Part shown: positions 8,678-58,567 of the stretch, piece after piece
Numbering within the stretch: position 1 is the first letter of the stretch
Layout: each line of letters opens with the position of its first letter
Source of the DNA: Thiomargarita sp.
GTDB lineage: Bacteria > Pseudomonadota > Gammaproteobacteria > Beggiatoales > Beggiatoaceae
Reading direction: 5' to 3'
NCBI GenBank assembly: GCA_020721005.1
Contig: DYNP01000003.1
Span: 124,001-188,000 of the forward strand
Length of the DNA: 64,000 bases
Notes under the pieces: generated by a model
The model's database searches: none
Told to the model about the DNA's origin: nothing
What the model saw: the letters and a program-made list of their open reading frames with translations, nothing else
Translations under genes and position numbers: made by a program

Positions 8678-8719
8678 ACACCCTGTTTCAATCAAGTGGT
8701 TTGTTAATATGGAGTATTT

Positions 8720-9379
8720 ATGACAGCAGATGCAACGGTTGCGAAATCTACAGTAGCCCCGGAATCTCCGGGTTCGCCTACTGAATCTGGTCAGTCGAAT
8801 TTATCTTCGGCGCAGATCACCGTCCCTGTGGAATCACCGGAGGAAGTGATTCCTCCCGAAGTTGTTTCAGAAGCTGCTTCAACTCCCACTGAATCTATTG
8901 TGGAAGAATTGACGCGTCAACTCGCAGCGGCTGAACAAAAGGCTACCGCAAACTGGGATAATCTATTGCGTAAGCAAGCAGAATTGGACAATGTACAAAA
9001 ACGCATGGCTCGAGAAATTGAGAATGCACACAAGTATGCACTTGAAAAATTTGCCATTGAGTTGCTAGAAGTCAAAGACAGTTTGGAACTGGGAATTGAA
9101 GCTGCCAATAAACCAGAAACTGACCTGGGGGCTGTTAAAGAGGGAATGATGCTGATTTCAAAAAAATTGGCTGACACCCTCAAAAAATTTAATATCTTGG
9201 AAATCAATCCCCAAGGTGAAAAGTTCAATCCCCAATGGCATGAAGCTATTGCCGTACAACCTGTTCAAGATCAGGAGGATAATACGGTGCTCTTAGTCCA
9301 CCAAAAAGGCTATCAACTCAATGACCGATTGTTGCGTCCAGCCCGAGTAGTGGTTGCTAAAGCCATTCAACCCAACTGA
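8720..9379 (+). CDS. grpE: Nucleotide exchange factor GrpE
   Basis: Releases ADP from DnaK. The 219-residue product has an unusually long acidic, Ser/Pro/Glu-rich N-terminus (about 1-60, probably disordered). The long helix comes next (ELTRQLAAAEQKATANWDNL to about 115), then the C-terminal beta domain with the family block NPQWHEAIAV and the ending LRPARVVVAKA. Located between hrcA and dnaK as in Xanthomonas and relatives, and downstream of the RpoH-type promoter. Confidence 0.95.
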   Translation: MTADATVAKSTVAPESPGSPTESGQSNLSSAQITVPVESPEEVIPPEVVSEAASTPTESIVEELTRQLAAAEQKATANWDNLLRKQAELDNVQKRMAREIENAHKYALEKFAIELLEVKDSLELGIEAANKPETDLGAVKEGMMLISKKLADTLKKFNILEINPQGEKFNPQWHEAIAVQPVQDQEDNTVLLVHQKGYQLNDRLLRPARVVVAKAIQPN

Positions 9380-9465
9380 CAAACTGCTGAATTAGAGAAT
9401 AGGATTACTCATTCTACACCCGAGTAACCGATAGAATTTGCTTTTTTTAAGATAAAGGAACGATT

Positions 9466-11406
9466 ATGGGAAAAATTATTGGCATTGATTTAGGTACCAC
9501 CAATTCATGCGTAGCCATCATGGAAGGCAAAACCACCAAAGTGATTGAGAACAGTGAAGGTTCTCGCACGACTCCTTCCGTAATTGCCTTCACCAATGAT
9601 GGAGAAGTGTTGGTCGGGCAATCCGCCAAGCGTCAAGCCGTTACCAATCCTCAAAATACCTTATTTGCTATTAAACGTTTGATCGGACGTAAATATGATG
9701 ATCGAGTAGTACAACGAGATATCGAAATGGTCCCTTATAAAATCGTAAGGGCAGACAATGCAGACGCTTGGGTCGAAGTCAACGGCAGAAAAATGGCACC
9801 CCCAGAAATTTCTGCTCGAGTGCTCATGAAAATGAAAAAAACTGCCGAAGACTATTTAGGGGAAACCATCAGAGAAGCCGTGATCACGGTCCCAGCTTAT
9901 TTTAACGACTCTCAACGTCAAGCAACTAAGGATGCGGGTCGCATCGCGGGTTTAGAAGTGAGACGCATCATCAATGAACCCACCGCAGCAGCCCTAGCCT
10001 ATGGCATGGATAAAAAACGAGGCGATGTCAAAATTGCCGTTTATGATCTTGGTGGTGGCACCTTTGACATTTCCATCATTGAAATTGCCGAAGTCGATGG
10101 AGAACATCAATTTGAAGTACTTTCCACCAATGGAGACACTTTCCTTGGCGGTGAAGACTTTGACATGCGCATCATCGACTATCTGGTAGAAGAATTCAAA
10201 AAAGACACCGGCGTCAACCTAAAAACCGATCCCCTGGCCCTTCAACGTCTCAAAGAAGCCGCGGAAAAAGCCAAGATCGAACTGTCTTCCAGTCAACAAA
10301 CCGAAGTCAATCTGCCCTATGTCACTGCTGATGCCACCGGGCCTAAGCATATGAATGTTAAACTGACCCGGGCCAAATTGGAAGCCCTGGTAGAAGATTT
10401 GGTGGAACGAACCTTAGAACCTTGCAAGACCGCTCTCAAAGATGCCGGTCTATCTGCTCGGGACATCAACGAGGTCATTCTCGTCGGTGGTCAAACTCGC
10501 ATGCCCAAAGTGCAAGAAATCGTCAAAAATCTCTTTGGCAAAGAGCCGCGTAAAGACGTCAACCCAGATGAAGCCGTTGCCGTCGGCGCTGCCATCCAAG
10601 GCGGAGTACTTTCCGGAGACGTTAAAGACGTCTTATTATTAGACGTGACCCCGCTGTCCTTGGGAATTGAAACCATGGGAGGAGTGATGACCAAACTCAT
10701 CCCCAAAAATACCACCATTCCCACCAAGCACTCCCAAGTCTTTTCCACCGCAGAAGACAACCAAACCGCAGTCACTGTCCACGTGTTACAAGGGGAACGA
10801 GACATTGCCTCTGGCAACAAATCACTCGCCAAATTTGATCTGGCGGGTATTCCACCAGCTCCGCGTGGCATTCCCCAAATTGAAGTCACATTTGACATTG
10901 ATGCCAACGGTATTCTGCACGTATCTGCCAAAGACAAGGCAACCGGTAAGGAACAATCCATTCAAATCAAAGCTTCCAGCGGCTTGACTGAAGAAGAAAT
11001 CAACAACATGGTCAAAGATGCCGAAGCCCATGCCAGTGAAGACAAAAAGTTCCATGAACTGGTGGAAGCCCGCAATCAGGCCGACAATCTGATGCATGCC
11101 ACCACGAAATCTCTGAAAGATTTTGGAGATAAAGTAACTGACTCGGACAAATCAGCAGTCGAAAAGGCAATTGAAAGTTTACAACAAGCAATTAAGAATG
11201 ATGACAAGGCTGAAATCGAAGCCAAAACGCAAACCTTAGCCGAATTGTCGGGTCGCATTGCTCAACAAGTCTATGCAACGCAAGCTAATCCTGGAGAAAG
11301 TGCACAGGGATTCACGGAAGCGGCAAAAACTGCAGGTGCCAACAAGGACAAAAAGGCTAAAGAAAACGTTGTGGATGCTGAATTTGAAGAAATCAAGGAT
11401 AAGTAA
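9466..11406 (+). CDS. dnaK: Chaperone DnaK (Hsp70)
   Basis: ATP-dependent folding chaperone working with DnaJ and GrpE. The 646-residue product starts with the phosphate-binding motif [16 protein letters not shown], has [20 protein letters not shown] and the second phosphate loop [11 protein letters not shown], then the linker [16 protein letters not shown] and the peptide-binding and lid domains. The C-terminus ends in an acidic [10 protein letters not shown] tail typical of proteobacterial DnaK. Its codon use is more C-rich at third positions than hrcA just upstream, fitting high expression. Confidence 0.98.
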
Positions 11407-54058: not shown

Positions 54059-55678
54059 GTGTCTTCAATAAATCAAGCCAAAGCCGAAGCCCAAAAACTC
54101 ATCAAACGTTATAATCAACTGCAAGCAGAAGCCAAACAAGCCGATGCTGCAGAAGCCTCTCGAAAAGCCGCTGAAGCTGAAAAATTAGTCTCACAAATCA
54201 GTGCCTTACAAGGTGCTATTGCCAAATTGCAAGCCAAAGACAGAGAAGCTTTGGCCAAAAAACCAGCCACCACCACGGCCCCTCCATCCCCAGTCCCCAA
54301 ACCCAAGGTGGCCGGTCAAGAAGAATTAACTCCAGAACAAATTAAAAAGGCAGAAGCCGAGCGAAGGGAATTGGAATCCAGAATTAACCGTATTGAAGAA
54401 GCTCAACGAAAAACTCGCAATCAAATTGACCAATTGACACGAGCAAAAGCAGAGTTAACCCGGTTAAGAGAACAAGCAGAAAAAAATGCGTCCAGTGTGG
54501 CTACCGAGAAACGAATTCAAGAAGAAAAGTTACAAAAGGAGTTAGCCAGTCTTATTGCCAAAAAGGAAGCTGAACATTCCAATTTGAAGAAAGAAATGGA
54601 ACTGATTCGTTCCCAAGCTGAAAAGGATGCGGAATTGCTGAAAGTTCAGCGGGATGCAGCTCGAGCCATGATGGAAAAACAAAAAAAACTGGAGTTAGAA
54701 AAAATCAAAATTCGTCATCGTGGAGGCGGGCACAAAGCAGTGTGGATAGGAGTTGGTGTGGGGGGCGTCATGAGTGTTTTAACTGTGGCAGTAGTATTAT
54801 TATTCACCCCCATCGGCCAAAATTTACTGAGTAGTCAGCAAGCTTCCCCATCCCCTCGAGAAACCAAAGTCAGTTCCCCGGAAAAGCCAGTTGATCAATC
54901 CGCTGTTGCTGAAGAAGAGTCTCCACCAACTGCAGTGCGAGTACAAGCTGTAGGCACCTTTCAAGATCGATTGTCCAATGGGGGAGCCGGTCCCATCATG
55001 CTTATTTTACCAGAAGGCAGTTTTCTAATGGGCAGTTCCAACTCTTCTCTCAACCAAGATGAGCGCCCACAGGTTAAAGTTTCTTTACAAAGTTTTTCCA
55101 TCAGCAAATATGAAATCACTTTCGATGAATATGATGCATTTGCTGCAACCACGGGCAAAGAACTTCCCCGAGATCAAGGATGGGGACGCGGCAATCGCCC
55201 AGTCATCAATGTCAATTGGGAAGAAGCTTCTGAATATAGCAAATGGCTTACGGAACAAACTGGGAATCAATATCGTTTGCCCAGTGAGAGAGAATGGGAA
55301 TATGCAGCCGCTGCTGGGACCAGCACTGCCTTTTGGTGGGGCTATGAGATAGGACGTAATAATGCCAATTGTGGCAGTTGTGGCAGTCAATGGGATGCCA
55401 AGCAAACCGCTCCAGTTGGCAGTTTTCCCGCCAATGCCTTTGGACTGCATGATACCATTGGGAATATCATGGAATGGACCAACAGTTGCTACCGCTCCAG
55501 TTATCGGGGAGCTCCCGGGTTTGGACAAGAATGGGAGGGGGGAAATTGTTCCAAACGTATGGTTCGTGGTCCCTCTTTCAAAACTTACGAAAAAGATGTT
55601 CGCACCACCAGACGATTTAGCTATAGCAGTCGCACTCGCATGGACAGTTTGGGTTTTCGCGTGGCTCGGGCGAATTAA
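54059..55678 (+). CDS. Membrane protein: N-terminal coiled coil, one helix, periplasmic FGE-sulfatase domain
   Basis: 539 residues starting at GTG. Residues about 1-220 are charged, Ala/Glu/Lys-rich and strongly coiled coil, with a Pro-rich break at 69-88. One membrane helix lies at about 227-250. After a Ser/Pro linker, a formylglycine-generating-enzyme-like domain covers 311-538 (GSFLMGSSNS, ISKYEITFDEYDAF, RLPSEREWEYAAAAGT, GLHDTIGNIMEWT, LGFRVAR). The catalytic Cys of true sulfatase-activating enzymes is not seen at the C-terminal RMVRGPSF...RR block, so binding or other chemistry is likelier. The coiled coil should lie in the cytoplasm. Confidence 0.85.
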   Translation: MSSINQAKAEAQKLIKRYNQLQAEAKQADAAEASRKAAEAEKLVSQISALQGAIAKLQAKDREALAKKPATTTAPPSPVPKPKVAGQEELTPEQIKKAEAERRELESRINRIEEAQRKTRNQIDQLTRAKAELTRLREQAEKNASSVATEKRIQEEKLQKELASLIAKKEAEHSNLKKEMELIRSQAEKDAELLKVQRDAARAMMEKQKKLELEKIKIRHRGGGHKAVWIGVGVGGVMSVLTVAVVLLFTPIGQNLLSSQQASPSPRETKVSSPEKPVDQSAVAEEESPPTAVRVQAVGTFQDRLSNGGAGPIMLILPEGSFLMGSSNSSLNQDERPQVKVSLQSFSISKYEITFDEYDAFAATTGKELPRDQGWGRGNRPVINVNWEEASEYSKWLTEQTGNQYRLPSEREWEYAAAAGTSTAFWWGYEIGRNNANCGSCGSQWDAKQTAPVGSFPANAFGLHDTIGNIMEWTNSCYRSSYRGAPGFGQEWEGGNCSKRMVRGPSFKTYEKDVRTTRRFSYSSRTRMDSLGFRVARAN

Positions 55679-55953: not shown

Positions 55954-56313
55954 TCAACTTAATGCATCCAAATCTAACAATTTTTGAGCGATAGTATGCG
56001 ATAAGATGTGCATTTCTGTGATAATTGCTTGAGATCCTGCATGATCACCCGCCTGCTTTTTCTGTAATGCCAACTGACTGACTTTGTGGAATTTTTCATG
56101 AGGCTCAAACAAAGCTTCAAATGCCTGTTGAGCCTGTGGATTGCCCAAAGAAGCCACTTCGTTAGATCCCTCCCCATACAACCATTTCCCCAATTTACAG
56201 TCCTGATGAGAAGTCCCTTGGAAATCTATTTTTCCACTGAGGGCATTTTCTACACTTTTTAAGTATTGCACATGATCGTTAAGACGCATTAGAAAAAACG
56301 CTTTGCCAGGCAT
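55954..56313 (-). CDS. Stand-alone CZB (chemoreceptor zinc-binding) domain protein
   Basis: 119 residues, all CZB domain. The expected zinc ligands are present: His14, Cys39 in CKLGKWLYGEG, His72 and His76 in EPHEKFHKVS. In chemoreceptors and DgcZ this domain senses zinc or hypochlorite. Here it has no output domain, so it must act on a separate partner. No signal peptide. It follows the small GTPase by 171 bases on the same strand. Confidence 0.9.
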   Translation of the reverse strand: MPGKAFFLMRLNDHVQYLKSVENALSGKIDFQGTSHQDCKLGKWLYGEGSNEVASLGNPQAQQAFEALFEPHEKFHKVSQLALQKKQAGDHAGSQAIITEMHILSHTIAQKLLDLDALS

Positions 56314-56484
56314 ACCAATTTCCTTTGCAATGAAGGTTGGAAAATAAGCGGAAGAACCCTGTTTTCACTCTGCCTTTTTGGAGAGAAAACATGGAACTGT
56401 TAACTGAATTCATTGAAAATTATAGCATTTCAATTTTATAAGTTGACTGCGGGAACATGCCAAAATAAGTTGATGTTTCCAGGT

Positions 56485-57033
56485 TTAGCTTTTACTTTTC
56501 AAATTGGGATCTAATGAGTAAAGCAACGCTTGTAACAATAGAGACACCTCTTTTTTACTGCGTGCATCAACCTCAAAAAGCGGAGGATTTAGGTTGAGCA
56601 GTCGCAACTCCCGATGATAATCGCTGAGTTTGGGCGTGTTGGAAATGTCCGTGCGAGTCACTCCGATTGCGACTTGCGTATTTTTTATTAAATTGGCAAA
56701 TGCATTCAGAAAAAATCGCATGTCTTCCAAAGGTGAGACTCGGGCATTGTCAAGCAACAAAATAAGTCCCAATCCCCCTTCACTGATAATATCCCACATA
56801 AAATCAAATCGTTCCTGACCCGGAGTGCCATACAAGTGAATTTTATCCTGACTTTTGAGTTTGATCAGCCCGTAATCCAAACCCACAGTAACGGTTTTTT
56901 TGTATTCATGTAACGGATTTCGCTGAGTCGCCTTGGCCTCAGTCATAACCACGGGAATATCGCTGAGACTGCTGATGGCCGTGGTTTTTCCAGACCCTGT
57001 GGGACCGGTGAAAATTAATTTATATTGACTCAT
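56485..57033 (-). CDS. Small Ras-like GTPase
   Basis: 182 residues, one GTPase domain. P-loop GPTGSGKTT (10-18), switch I region with Thr47/Thr49 in KKTVTVGLDYG, G3 GTPGQERF (69-76) and G4 TRTD (126-129, in place of NKxD). This form is like the bacterial MglA/Rag-type small GTPases found in filamentous and gliding bacteria. It starts 3 bases after the stop of the pseudo-receiver gene, so the two are coupled. Confidence 0.9.
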   Translation of the reverse strand: MSQYKLIFTGPTGSGKTTAISSLSDIPVVMTEAKATQRNPLHEYKKTVTVGLDYGLIKLKSQDKIHLYGTPGQERFDFMWDIISEGGLGLILLLDNARVSPLEDMRFFLNAFANLIKNTQVAIGVTRTDISNTPKLSDYHRELRLLNLNPPLFEVDARSKKEVSLLLQALLYSLDPNLKSKS

Positions 57034-57036
57034 AAT

Positions 57037-58206
57037 TTATTCCTGACCACGCAATCTGGCCAAAATTCTTTGGAACAATCCGCGTTTATTTTTATCTGAT
57101 CCATTGGGATTAAGAGCTTGTCGAGCCCGTTTTTCCAAACGCCGATCAATAAAGGCCAGTTTGATTGCACAGGCAGCACTGAAGAATGAGAATACATAAC
57201 GTTGGGGAATTTCCAATACTTTTGCAGTGTCCAATAAACTGTGGGGATGGGCAATCCACAAGGCAGAAATTTCTAAAGCATGGGGGGTGACTATTAGGTG
57301 AGTAAAATTGGGCCAATGAATAAGGACCACATCTTTGGTCAAATCAGTCCCTTTAGGAATTTTGCCACGGGCCGTCCATAAGGCGACTTTCCACAAAAAA
57401 TTGTCCAAGGGTTGCATGGTCAATTTTCCCGCCACTTGGCGTTGTTGGACTTCGCTGTGGCTGAGCGTGATCAGGCGCAAATGACTGTTGCTGGCCAAAG
57501 GTAATAAGGTCATCGTTCGCAATTGATTTTCGGTGGCATCACAGCCGCACAGTAATTGATTTTTTTCAGGATATAAGATCATGGGTGTATACAATCCTTC
57601 TATAGAAACTCCACCAGTTTGCAGTTGTTGAGCCACGGAAAAAGCCTTCTCAAAAAAGCCCTGTAGATATTTTTCTGGCTCGTAATAAACTTTTTCCACT
57701 TCAGCTGGATTTTTAGGATTGATATCAGCCATATAGCCGCAAAATTGATGTAAAACTTCTTCCTCTGCTTCCAAATTCAATTCTGTATTTAGTTTGGATT
57801 GACGAGTGCTTTGGGTCAATTGCTCACCTTGTGCCTGCACCGGGGCTAAGGCTTCTACAGTCTTAAGCTTTTGTTCCTGATGCAATTGTTTCGCTTTGGA
57901 AAGGGCTTTGAGTAATTTTTCAATTTCAATGGGTTTTTTGACGAAGAAAGTCCCGGCGATATCTTTTTGATTTAAGGATAAAACGACAGTGGGCAATTGA
58001 GAATAGCTGGCTCGGTAACCAGCCCATAATTTCATGGCATCTAAGCCATCCAGGTCAAAAATGGTGGTTTCAGCCTCATCTGTTCGTTCAACCAGTAGGT
58101 AATCGCCCCTTCCGGGCCCGTTAAATACCATCTCGAGAATTTTACGAGTTTGATTGTCCATGCCAAGTGTGGTCACTCGCAATGGTTTGTTAATAGGTTG
58201 ATTCAT
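57037..58206 (-). CDS. Unknown protein with pseudo-receiver N-terminus, partner of the small GTPase
   Basis: 389 residues. Residues about 8-100 resemble a receiver fold: LRVTTLGMD, candidate phospho-site Asp51/Asp53 in TIFDLDGLD, and Lys-Pro in FFVKKPIEIEKLLKAL. A linker (100-160) leads to a larger domain (about 160-340) that I do not recognise, containing LLCGCDATENQLRT and WPNFTHLIVTPHALEI. The C-terminal helix set (SLLDTAKVLEIPQRYVFSFF) and basic tail follow. Not a standard response regulator. The order and 3-base gap to the GTPase indicate joint function. Confidence 0.75.
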   Translation of the reverse strand: MNQPINKPLRVTTLGMDNQTRKILEMVFNGPGRGDYLLVERTDEAETTIFDLDGLDAMKLWAGYRASYSQLPTVVLSLNQKDIAGTFFVKKPIEIEKLLKALSKAKQLHQEQKLKTVEALAPVQAQGEQLTQSTRQSKLNTELNLEAEEEVLHQFCGYMADINPKNPAEVEKVYYEPEKYLQGFFEKAFSVAQQLQTGGVSIEGLYTPMILYPEKNQLLCGCDATENQLRTMTLLPLASNSHLRLITLSHSEVQQRQVAGKLTMQPLDNFLWKVALWTARGKIPKGTDLTKDVVLIHWPNFTHLIVTPHALEISALWIAHPHSLLDTAKVLEIPQRYVFSFFSAACAIKLAFIDRRLEKRARQALNPNGSDKNKRGLFQRILARLRGQE

Positions 58207-58240: not shown

Positions 58241-58567
58241 TAGAGCTCTTGCAAAACTAAATGATGCGGTAAAGATGAGATACGAACAAGTAAAATTGCT
58301 AAAAGTCTAATGGTAAAGTGGGCAACCGCTTTATCGTTACCCATTCAATTCCAGCCATGCTATTCTAGAGAGGGAAATCCCCTTTGGAGTAGAGGTTTAA
58401 CCGGAGTGGAGGCTTTGGCCGGTCGGCGGTAGGCATCTTGCAATTTGAGTGTGGGGGGTGATGCCTACGGCTGACCGGCTAAAACCTCCACTTCAACGTA
58501 CCTTAACTGAATGGTAGAGTGGGCGATTTTCATCTTTTATTTATCCCATACTTTTGCAAGAAGTCTA
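58241..58567. mobile_element. 327-bp MITE-like element, copy B (inverted relative to copy A)
   Basis: Begins TAGAGCTCTTGCAAAAC and ends CTTTTGCAAGAAGTCTA. Its left end is the reverse complement of the right end of copy A, and the shared parts continue inward (GATGCGGTAAAGATGAG matches GATGCGATAAAGATGAG). A central palindrome carries GGAGTGGAGGCTTTGGCCGG. About 75 extra bases are present near 58300-58375. No coding capacity. The whole gap between the pseudo-receiver gene and perM otherwise shows no gene. Confidence 0.8.

Follow-up and report, generated by a model that had tools for sequence, protein, structure and literature searches.

The locus considered here, in a 64,000-nucleotide stretch of DNA from Thiomargarita sp. 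(the whole of which is termed the 'window'), is one half of a split operon: it carries genes for an 'RR-like' protein, a small Ras-like GTPase and a stand-alone CZB protein, and the genes for a Roadblock/LC7 protein and a second CZB protein lie together on another contig of the same genome. The RR-like protein, the GTPase and the roadblock protein very probably make up a Group 3 MglA system, of a kind already described though hardly characterised, and the coupling of CZB proteins to that core is the new part. The reading favored below, for which we would put the probability at about 0.45, is that the CZB proteins act through the roadblock protein on the GTPase. The features on which the argument draws are as follows.

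55954-56313, minus strand: stand-alone, 119-aa CZB protein (the copy that follows the GTPase gene); predicted zinc ligands H14, C39, H72 and H76
56485-57033, minus strand: Ras-like GTPase of the MglA family, very probably Group 3 type, 182 aa; motifs GPTGSGKT, T49, GTPGQ, TRTD and DAR
57037-58206, minus strand: RR-like protein, 389 aa; atypical receiver, disordered linker, and C-terminal alpha/beta plus winged-helix-like domain
57142-57729, minus strand: C-terminal domain of the RR-like protein (residues about 160-355), ending in the model with a three-helix HTH-like segment
57850-58185, minus strand: atypical receiver domain of the RR-like protein (residues about 8-119), from AlphaFold, Foldseek and conservation in 69 sequences
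58380-58560 (element perhaps 58241-58567), no strand: dispersed palindromic repeat; the genome contains over 100 pieces that match it

The three open reading frames are co-directional on the minus strand of the window, with the GTPase gene beginning 3 bases after the RR-like gene (an arrangement that the preliminary description had reported correctly) and the CZB gene following after a further 171 bases; plausible ribosome-binding sequences precede the ATG codons of the GTPase and CZB genes. Pfam matched a CZB domain in the smallest protein (E=1.7e-13), found the GTPase to match both ATP_bind_1 and Ras, and returned nothing significant for the 389-aa protein. Promoter and terminator scans of the locus gave results no better than those of shuffled sequence, and an Rfam search of it gave zero matches. 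The gene that converges on the CZB gene (54059-55678) encodes a protein of 539 aa whose N-terminus is charged and probably forms a coiled coil and whose C-terminal domain is of the FGE-sulfatase type (Pfam, 7.5e-53).

That the three genes belong to one signalling module, as had been proposed from this DNA stretch, is strongly borne out by the conserved neighbourhood, and the partners do co-occur in other genomes. All three proteins have relatives that occur together in the window's family (loci termed 'Beggiatoaceae-type'), with carriers among the large sulfur bacteria that include Thiomargarita, Parabeggiatoa, Thioploca, Marithrix and Venteria. The usual gene order in these loci is Roadblock-CZB-RR-GTPase-(CZB); the fourth gene of the module encodes a 120-aa Roadblock/LC7 protein. 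Among the 23 Beggiatoaceae-type loci, a set that counts the window locus too, the RR gene adjoins the GTPase gene in 22, at least one CZB gene is linked in 22 and a roadblock gene in 21; in ten, two CZB genes bracket the RR-GTPase pair. Across all 80 named loci there are 69 adjacent, co-directional RR-GTPase pairs, and a CZB gene recurs beside the module in about 20 genera. Both linkages are far beyond chance, and this recurrence across relatives rules out the possibility that the CZB linkage is an accident of one genome.

Outside the window's family, the module is present in Thiodiazotropha, Sedimenticola, Ectothiorhodospira, Zoogloea, Methylophilaceae, Alcanivoracaceae and Thiothrix, with a roadblock gene linked in most of these operons as well. 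Several further components accompany it there. A 215-aa protein, which is probably a divergent second roadblock, is encoded between the GTPase and roadblock genes of other lineages; 13 of the 28 members of its family match Robl_LC7 weakly (best 6.7e-4), an hhalign comparison with the roadblock alignment gave no match, and no copy was detected among the genomes of the window's family. At loci L083, L084, L091-L093, L097, L099 and L112, a protoglobin gene, whose product could sense gas or heme on behalf of this GTPase module, is inserted between the genes for the 215-aa protein and the roadblock protein, and in many other operons genes for a PAS protein (about 158 aa) and a PhnD-like substrate-binding protein (about 248 aa) follow the roadblock gene (L095, L104-L106, L119, L121 and L125). 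Most of the operons beyond the window's family have, ahead of the RR gene, a gene for a conserved TPR-containing protein of about 240 aa (L119, 9043-9765, and relatives); in Myxococcus, the TPR protein SgmX acts as an effector of MglA (PMC7519303). Within the window's family there is also a second, paralogous unit of the form GTPase-RR'-GTPase-Roadblock' (L026, L029, L030, L039, L172, L173 and L178), in which RR' is about 350 aa long and has the same layout as the RR-like protein; two GTPases per operon is unusual, and half-copies of this unit are found in the window genome itself (L033, L034 and L146).

The preliminary description knew of no described system that contains these parts. For the RR-like protein and the GTPase, this does not hold: in 2014, Wuichet and Søgaard-Andersen (PMC4316618) described Group 3 MglA systems in beta- and gamma-Proteobacteria, in which an MglA-type GTPase is combined with one or two homologues of MglB and with a protein of unknown function, and the last of these was given a receiver-like N-terminus and a winged-HTH-like C-terminus (the latter by Phyre2). 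The identification of the GTPase, its 389-aa neighbour and the roadblock protein with such a system appears close to secure, on the basis of motifs, partners and distribution rather than tree placement. The G3 motif is GTPGQ in 23 of 23 GTPases, the G5 motif is DAR in all 22 that have letters at that position, and G4 is without its usual lysine in 22 of 23 (TRxD or THxD, with a single exception, TKMD). The roadblock proteins, for their part, show the Asp-Gly pair of Group 3 systems in 18 of 18 sequences. All of the nucleotide-binding motifs are intact in sequence, as against the case of a GTPase without nucleotide binding that the preliminary description had named as refuting its proposal, and the wider distribution in beta and gamma lineages fits Group 3 as well. 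Three other families of small GTPase can be set aside: Group 1 MglA, by GTPGQ in place of TVPGQ and by the lack of an arginine next to the G2 threonine (T49); the conservons (Group 2 MglA), by the lack of a CvnA-type histidine kinase or CvnC nearby and by a G4 motif of TRxD rather than NxFD; and the Rup family (with a Ras-like DxxG in G3, and uncoupled from MglB), by GTPGQ together with the coupled roadblock gene. An entirely new system is ruled out by the 2014 description. For the CZB link, the supposition of novelty stood, in that the open-licence literature yielded no description of a CZB protein linked to a roadblock or GTPase module.

The roadblock gene is invisible in the window because in this genome it lies on another contig. 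It is not truly missing: contig C117 (locus L145) carries a roadblock gene (8680-9087) next to a second CZB gene (9166-9525). In a tree of CZB sequences that includes the two closest genomes, the copy on C117 clusters with their after-roadblock copies (SH-aLRT/bootstrap 92.2/93) and the one in the window with their after-GTPase copies (86/91), so that each copy falls according to its position and the window locus is half of a broken operon. These are local groupings; under the root used, the after-roadblock and after-GTPase copies do not form two clean, monophyletic clades. Upstream of the RR gene, where related genomes carry Roadblock-CZB, the window has the dispersed repeat, a REP- or MITE-like palindrome with 33-nt arms that are 88% complementary. 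The repeat marks the operon breakpoint at that position by its location only, and none of its matches listed lies beside the C117 half.

The CZB proteins are themselves strongly conserved. Cys39, Gly42, His72 and His76 are kept in 66 of 66 sequences and His14 in 65, such that the 3His/1Cys zinc site described for CZB domains (PMC8262984) is essentially invariant and zinc binding is predicted; a CZB profile search of the PDB gave zero matches at E 0.1, so that the assignment of the zinc ligands is based on Pfam and the alignment. The tightest link of the CZB genes is with the roadblock gene: 25 roadblock-to-CZB adjacencies are present in the 80 named loci, in lineages that differ in gene order. 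Four genomes (G000, G004, G008 and G016) have an intact roadblock-CZB pair that lies apart from the RR-GTPase pair and away from any contig end, two further such pairs (G001 and G036) finish at contig ends, and in one distant genome (L170) a CZB gene stands beside a divergent roadblock gene alone.

Gene identities, motifs, linkage, the receiver fold and the orthology of the displaced half are established by computation. A mechanism that would account for this arrangement, in which we infer the physical contacts, the direction of signalling and the output, runs as follows. Cytosolic CZB proteins would bind zinc through their 3His/1Cys sites; a change in zinc occupancy, whether from free zinc or driven by redox state, would alter how they contact the roadblock protein; the latter, as a GAP and/or an exchange regulator, would set the GTP/GDP state of the GTPase; and the GTPase would engage the RR-like protein, which would serve as its effector or as a second regulator. 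The output might be transcription or movement on surfaces, the latter by gliding or type IV pili. The step from CZB to roadblock is supported because their adjacency persists in different gene orders and in split operons. A link of Group 3 systems to motility is suggested by Snodgrassella, in which mutation of an orphan mglB alters motility at the colony edge, as well as gut competitiveness (PMC11112851). No phenotype of any other Group 3 system was found in the literature, nor was a published experiment on the biochemistry of a Group 3 GTPase, and type IV pilus genes are absent from the conserved neighbourhood.

The strongest competing explanation, although somewhat unlikely, is that this is an ordinary Group 3 MglA module, and that the CZB proteins are operon neighbours which regulate something else (a chemoreceptor or a c-di-GMP enzyme) and share with it only transcription or an ecological need. 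Most Group 3 modules do lack a CZB protein (across 274 genomes sampled from the class, the GTPase is present in 45 and this rare CZB subfamily in 4), and the known outputs of CZB domains are chemotaxis and c-di-GMP (PMC8262984). Furthermore, of the 49 CZB copies that the window's family has, 39 are within 1.5 kb of a gene of the module but ten lie away from it, and some CZB proteins may accordingly act elsewhere. Against this explanation, roadblock and CZB genes stay linked in two lineages that differ in gene order and upon splitting of the operon, and two CZB genes bracket RR-GTPase in ten family loci. A bolder reading, less likely than not, is that the CZB protein acts directly on the roadblock/GTPase pair, such that zinc or redox state would set the GTPase; more broadly, Group 3 modules might take interchangeable soluble sensors (CZB, PAS or protoglobin) at the roadblock protein. 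The PAS, protoglobin and PhnD-like genes outside the window's family occupy positions similar to that of the CZB gene.

The nature of the RR-like protein bears on two further explanations. Its AlphaFold model, built with 69 sequences, has a mean pLDDT of 89.1, and Foldseek relates its N-terminal part to receivers (CheY, PhoP and the CikA pseudo-receiver) with a probability of about 1.00 and a target TM of about 0.56-0.65. It is not a canonical response-regulator receiver: Gly-Met/Ile/Val stands in place of the acidic pair, and the model has no helix 4 (between strands 4 and 5). The earlier label of 'pseudo-receiver' is apt as regards the acidic pair, but the phospho-acceptor Asp51 (like Asp53) is kept in 68 of the 69 sequences, Lys91-Pro92 in all 69 and a serine or threonine at position 77 in 57. 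On the model and this conservation, the receiver is best regarded as atypical, not as a dead remnant. The C-terminal domain, for which structure prediction had been suggested, does yield a confident fold on its own (pLDDT 90.4, pTM 0.82), but without a confident match among solved structures; a full-length Foldseek search was uninformative for this part, and no sequence match was found. An effector, an exchange factor and a DNA binder consequently look alike here.

It is on this domain that a second alternative, which we regard as unlikely, depends: that the module is mainly transcriptional, with the GTPase and roadblock protein controlling an RR-like protein whose winged-helix C-terminus binds DNA, as proposed in 2014. 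The Phyre2 assignment in that study (PMC4316618) and the three-helix segment at the end of the present model are both consistent with it. However, no solved DNA-binding domain matches the C-terminal domain with confidence, the segment that would serve as recognition helix (residues 335-347, QRYVFSFFSAACA) consists, Q335-R336 aside, largely of hydrophobic residues, and the weak structural matches that were obtained are to protein-interaction chains (FAM91A1 and chains of the SEA complex). The Npr2/Npr3 proteins of that complex carry tandem winged helices (PMC3521125), and the weak match may reflect only this shared element; to treat a DNA-binding output as proven would in any case be unsupported. 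Finally, a phosphorylation switch, in which a histidine kinase would phosphorylate Asp51 and the receiver would recruit or activate the GTPase, as RomR, the receiver-domain partner of MglA, does in Myxococcus (PMC6785124 and PMC9481161), with CZB as a secondary input, is improbable in spite of the retained aspartate, lysine and serine/threonine, since the acidic pair that helps to hold Mg2+ is lost, helix 4 is missing in the model and the conserved neighbourhood includes no gene for a kinase.

If CZB proteins do act directly on the roadblock/GTPase pair, this would represent a third class of CZB output beside chemoreceptors and c-di-GMP enzymes, and a path from sensor to GTPase that requires no kinase. 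Gliding sulfur bacteria must position themselves in oxygen-sulfide gradients, and zinc or redox sensing would in them be tied to a polarity- or motility-type switch. A preprint has proposed that CZB domains read redox state via bioavailable zinc (PMC13370339), a property that, speculatively, would suit gradient-dwelling sulfur bacteria. The signal inputs of most bacterial Ras-like GTPases are unexplained, and CZB-only proteins, which make up about 27% of CZB sequences (PMC8262984), have been without an assigned partner; the linkage offers each a testable one.

Comparison with known systems places the module closest to Group 3 MglA (PMC4316618, and the mgl locus of Snodgrassella, PMC11112851), with which it shares the RR-like protein, GTPase and roadblock, the GTPGQ and DAR motifs, the loss of the G4 lysine and the beta/gamma distribution. 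The window's family differs in adding one or two stand-alone CZB proteins, of which the accessible text of those papers makes no mention, in having no detected 215-aa second partner and, in the window genome, in the splitting of the operon. The actinobacterial conservons (CvnA-D) likewise combine a roadblock protein and a GTPase with a sensory component in one conserved operon, but use a membrane sensor kinase (CvnA), CvnC and a G4 motif of NxFD where the present module has a receiver-like protein, a soluble CZB protein and TRxD. The Group 1 polarity module of Myxococcus (MglA/MglB/RomR/RomX), with its GTPase, roadblock GAP and receiver-domain partner, provides a good working analogy, although its GTPase has TVPGQ and an intrinsic arginine finger in contrast to GTPGQ and none here, it lacks a CZB protein, and the RR-like protein here ends in a folded domain of alpha/beta and winged-helix-like character. 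The pseudo-receivers CikA PsR, the KaiA N-domain and HP1043, all three among the Foldseek matches, share a receiver fold without the full phosphorylation pocket; the RR-like protein differs in keeping the phospho-Asp and Lys, in lacking helix 4 and in its C-terminal domain. Finally, the 3His/1Cys site and Cys-x-x-Gly motif are common to TlpD, DgcZ, McpA and the CZB-only group (PMC8262984). The second position of the Cys motif is Lys or Gln here (CKLGKWL), where the CZB domains of chemoreceptors and cyclases are enriched in Arg and CZB-only proteins are reported to have Ala, and the window CZB protein, rather than carrying a fused output, has as its genomic partner a roadblock/GTPase module.
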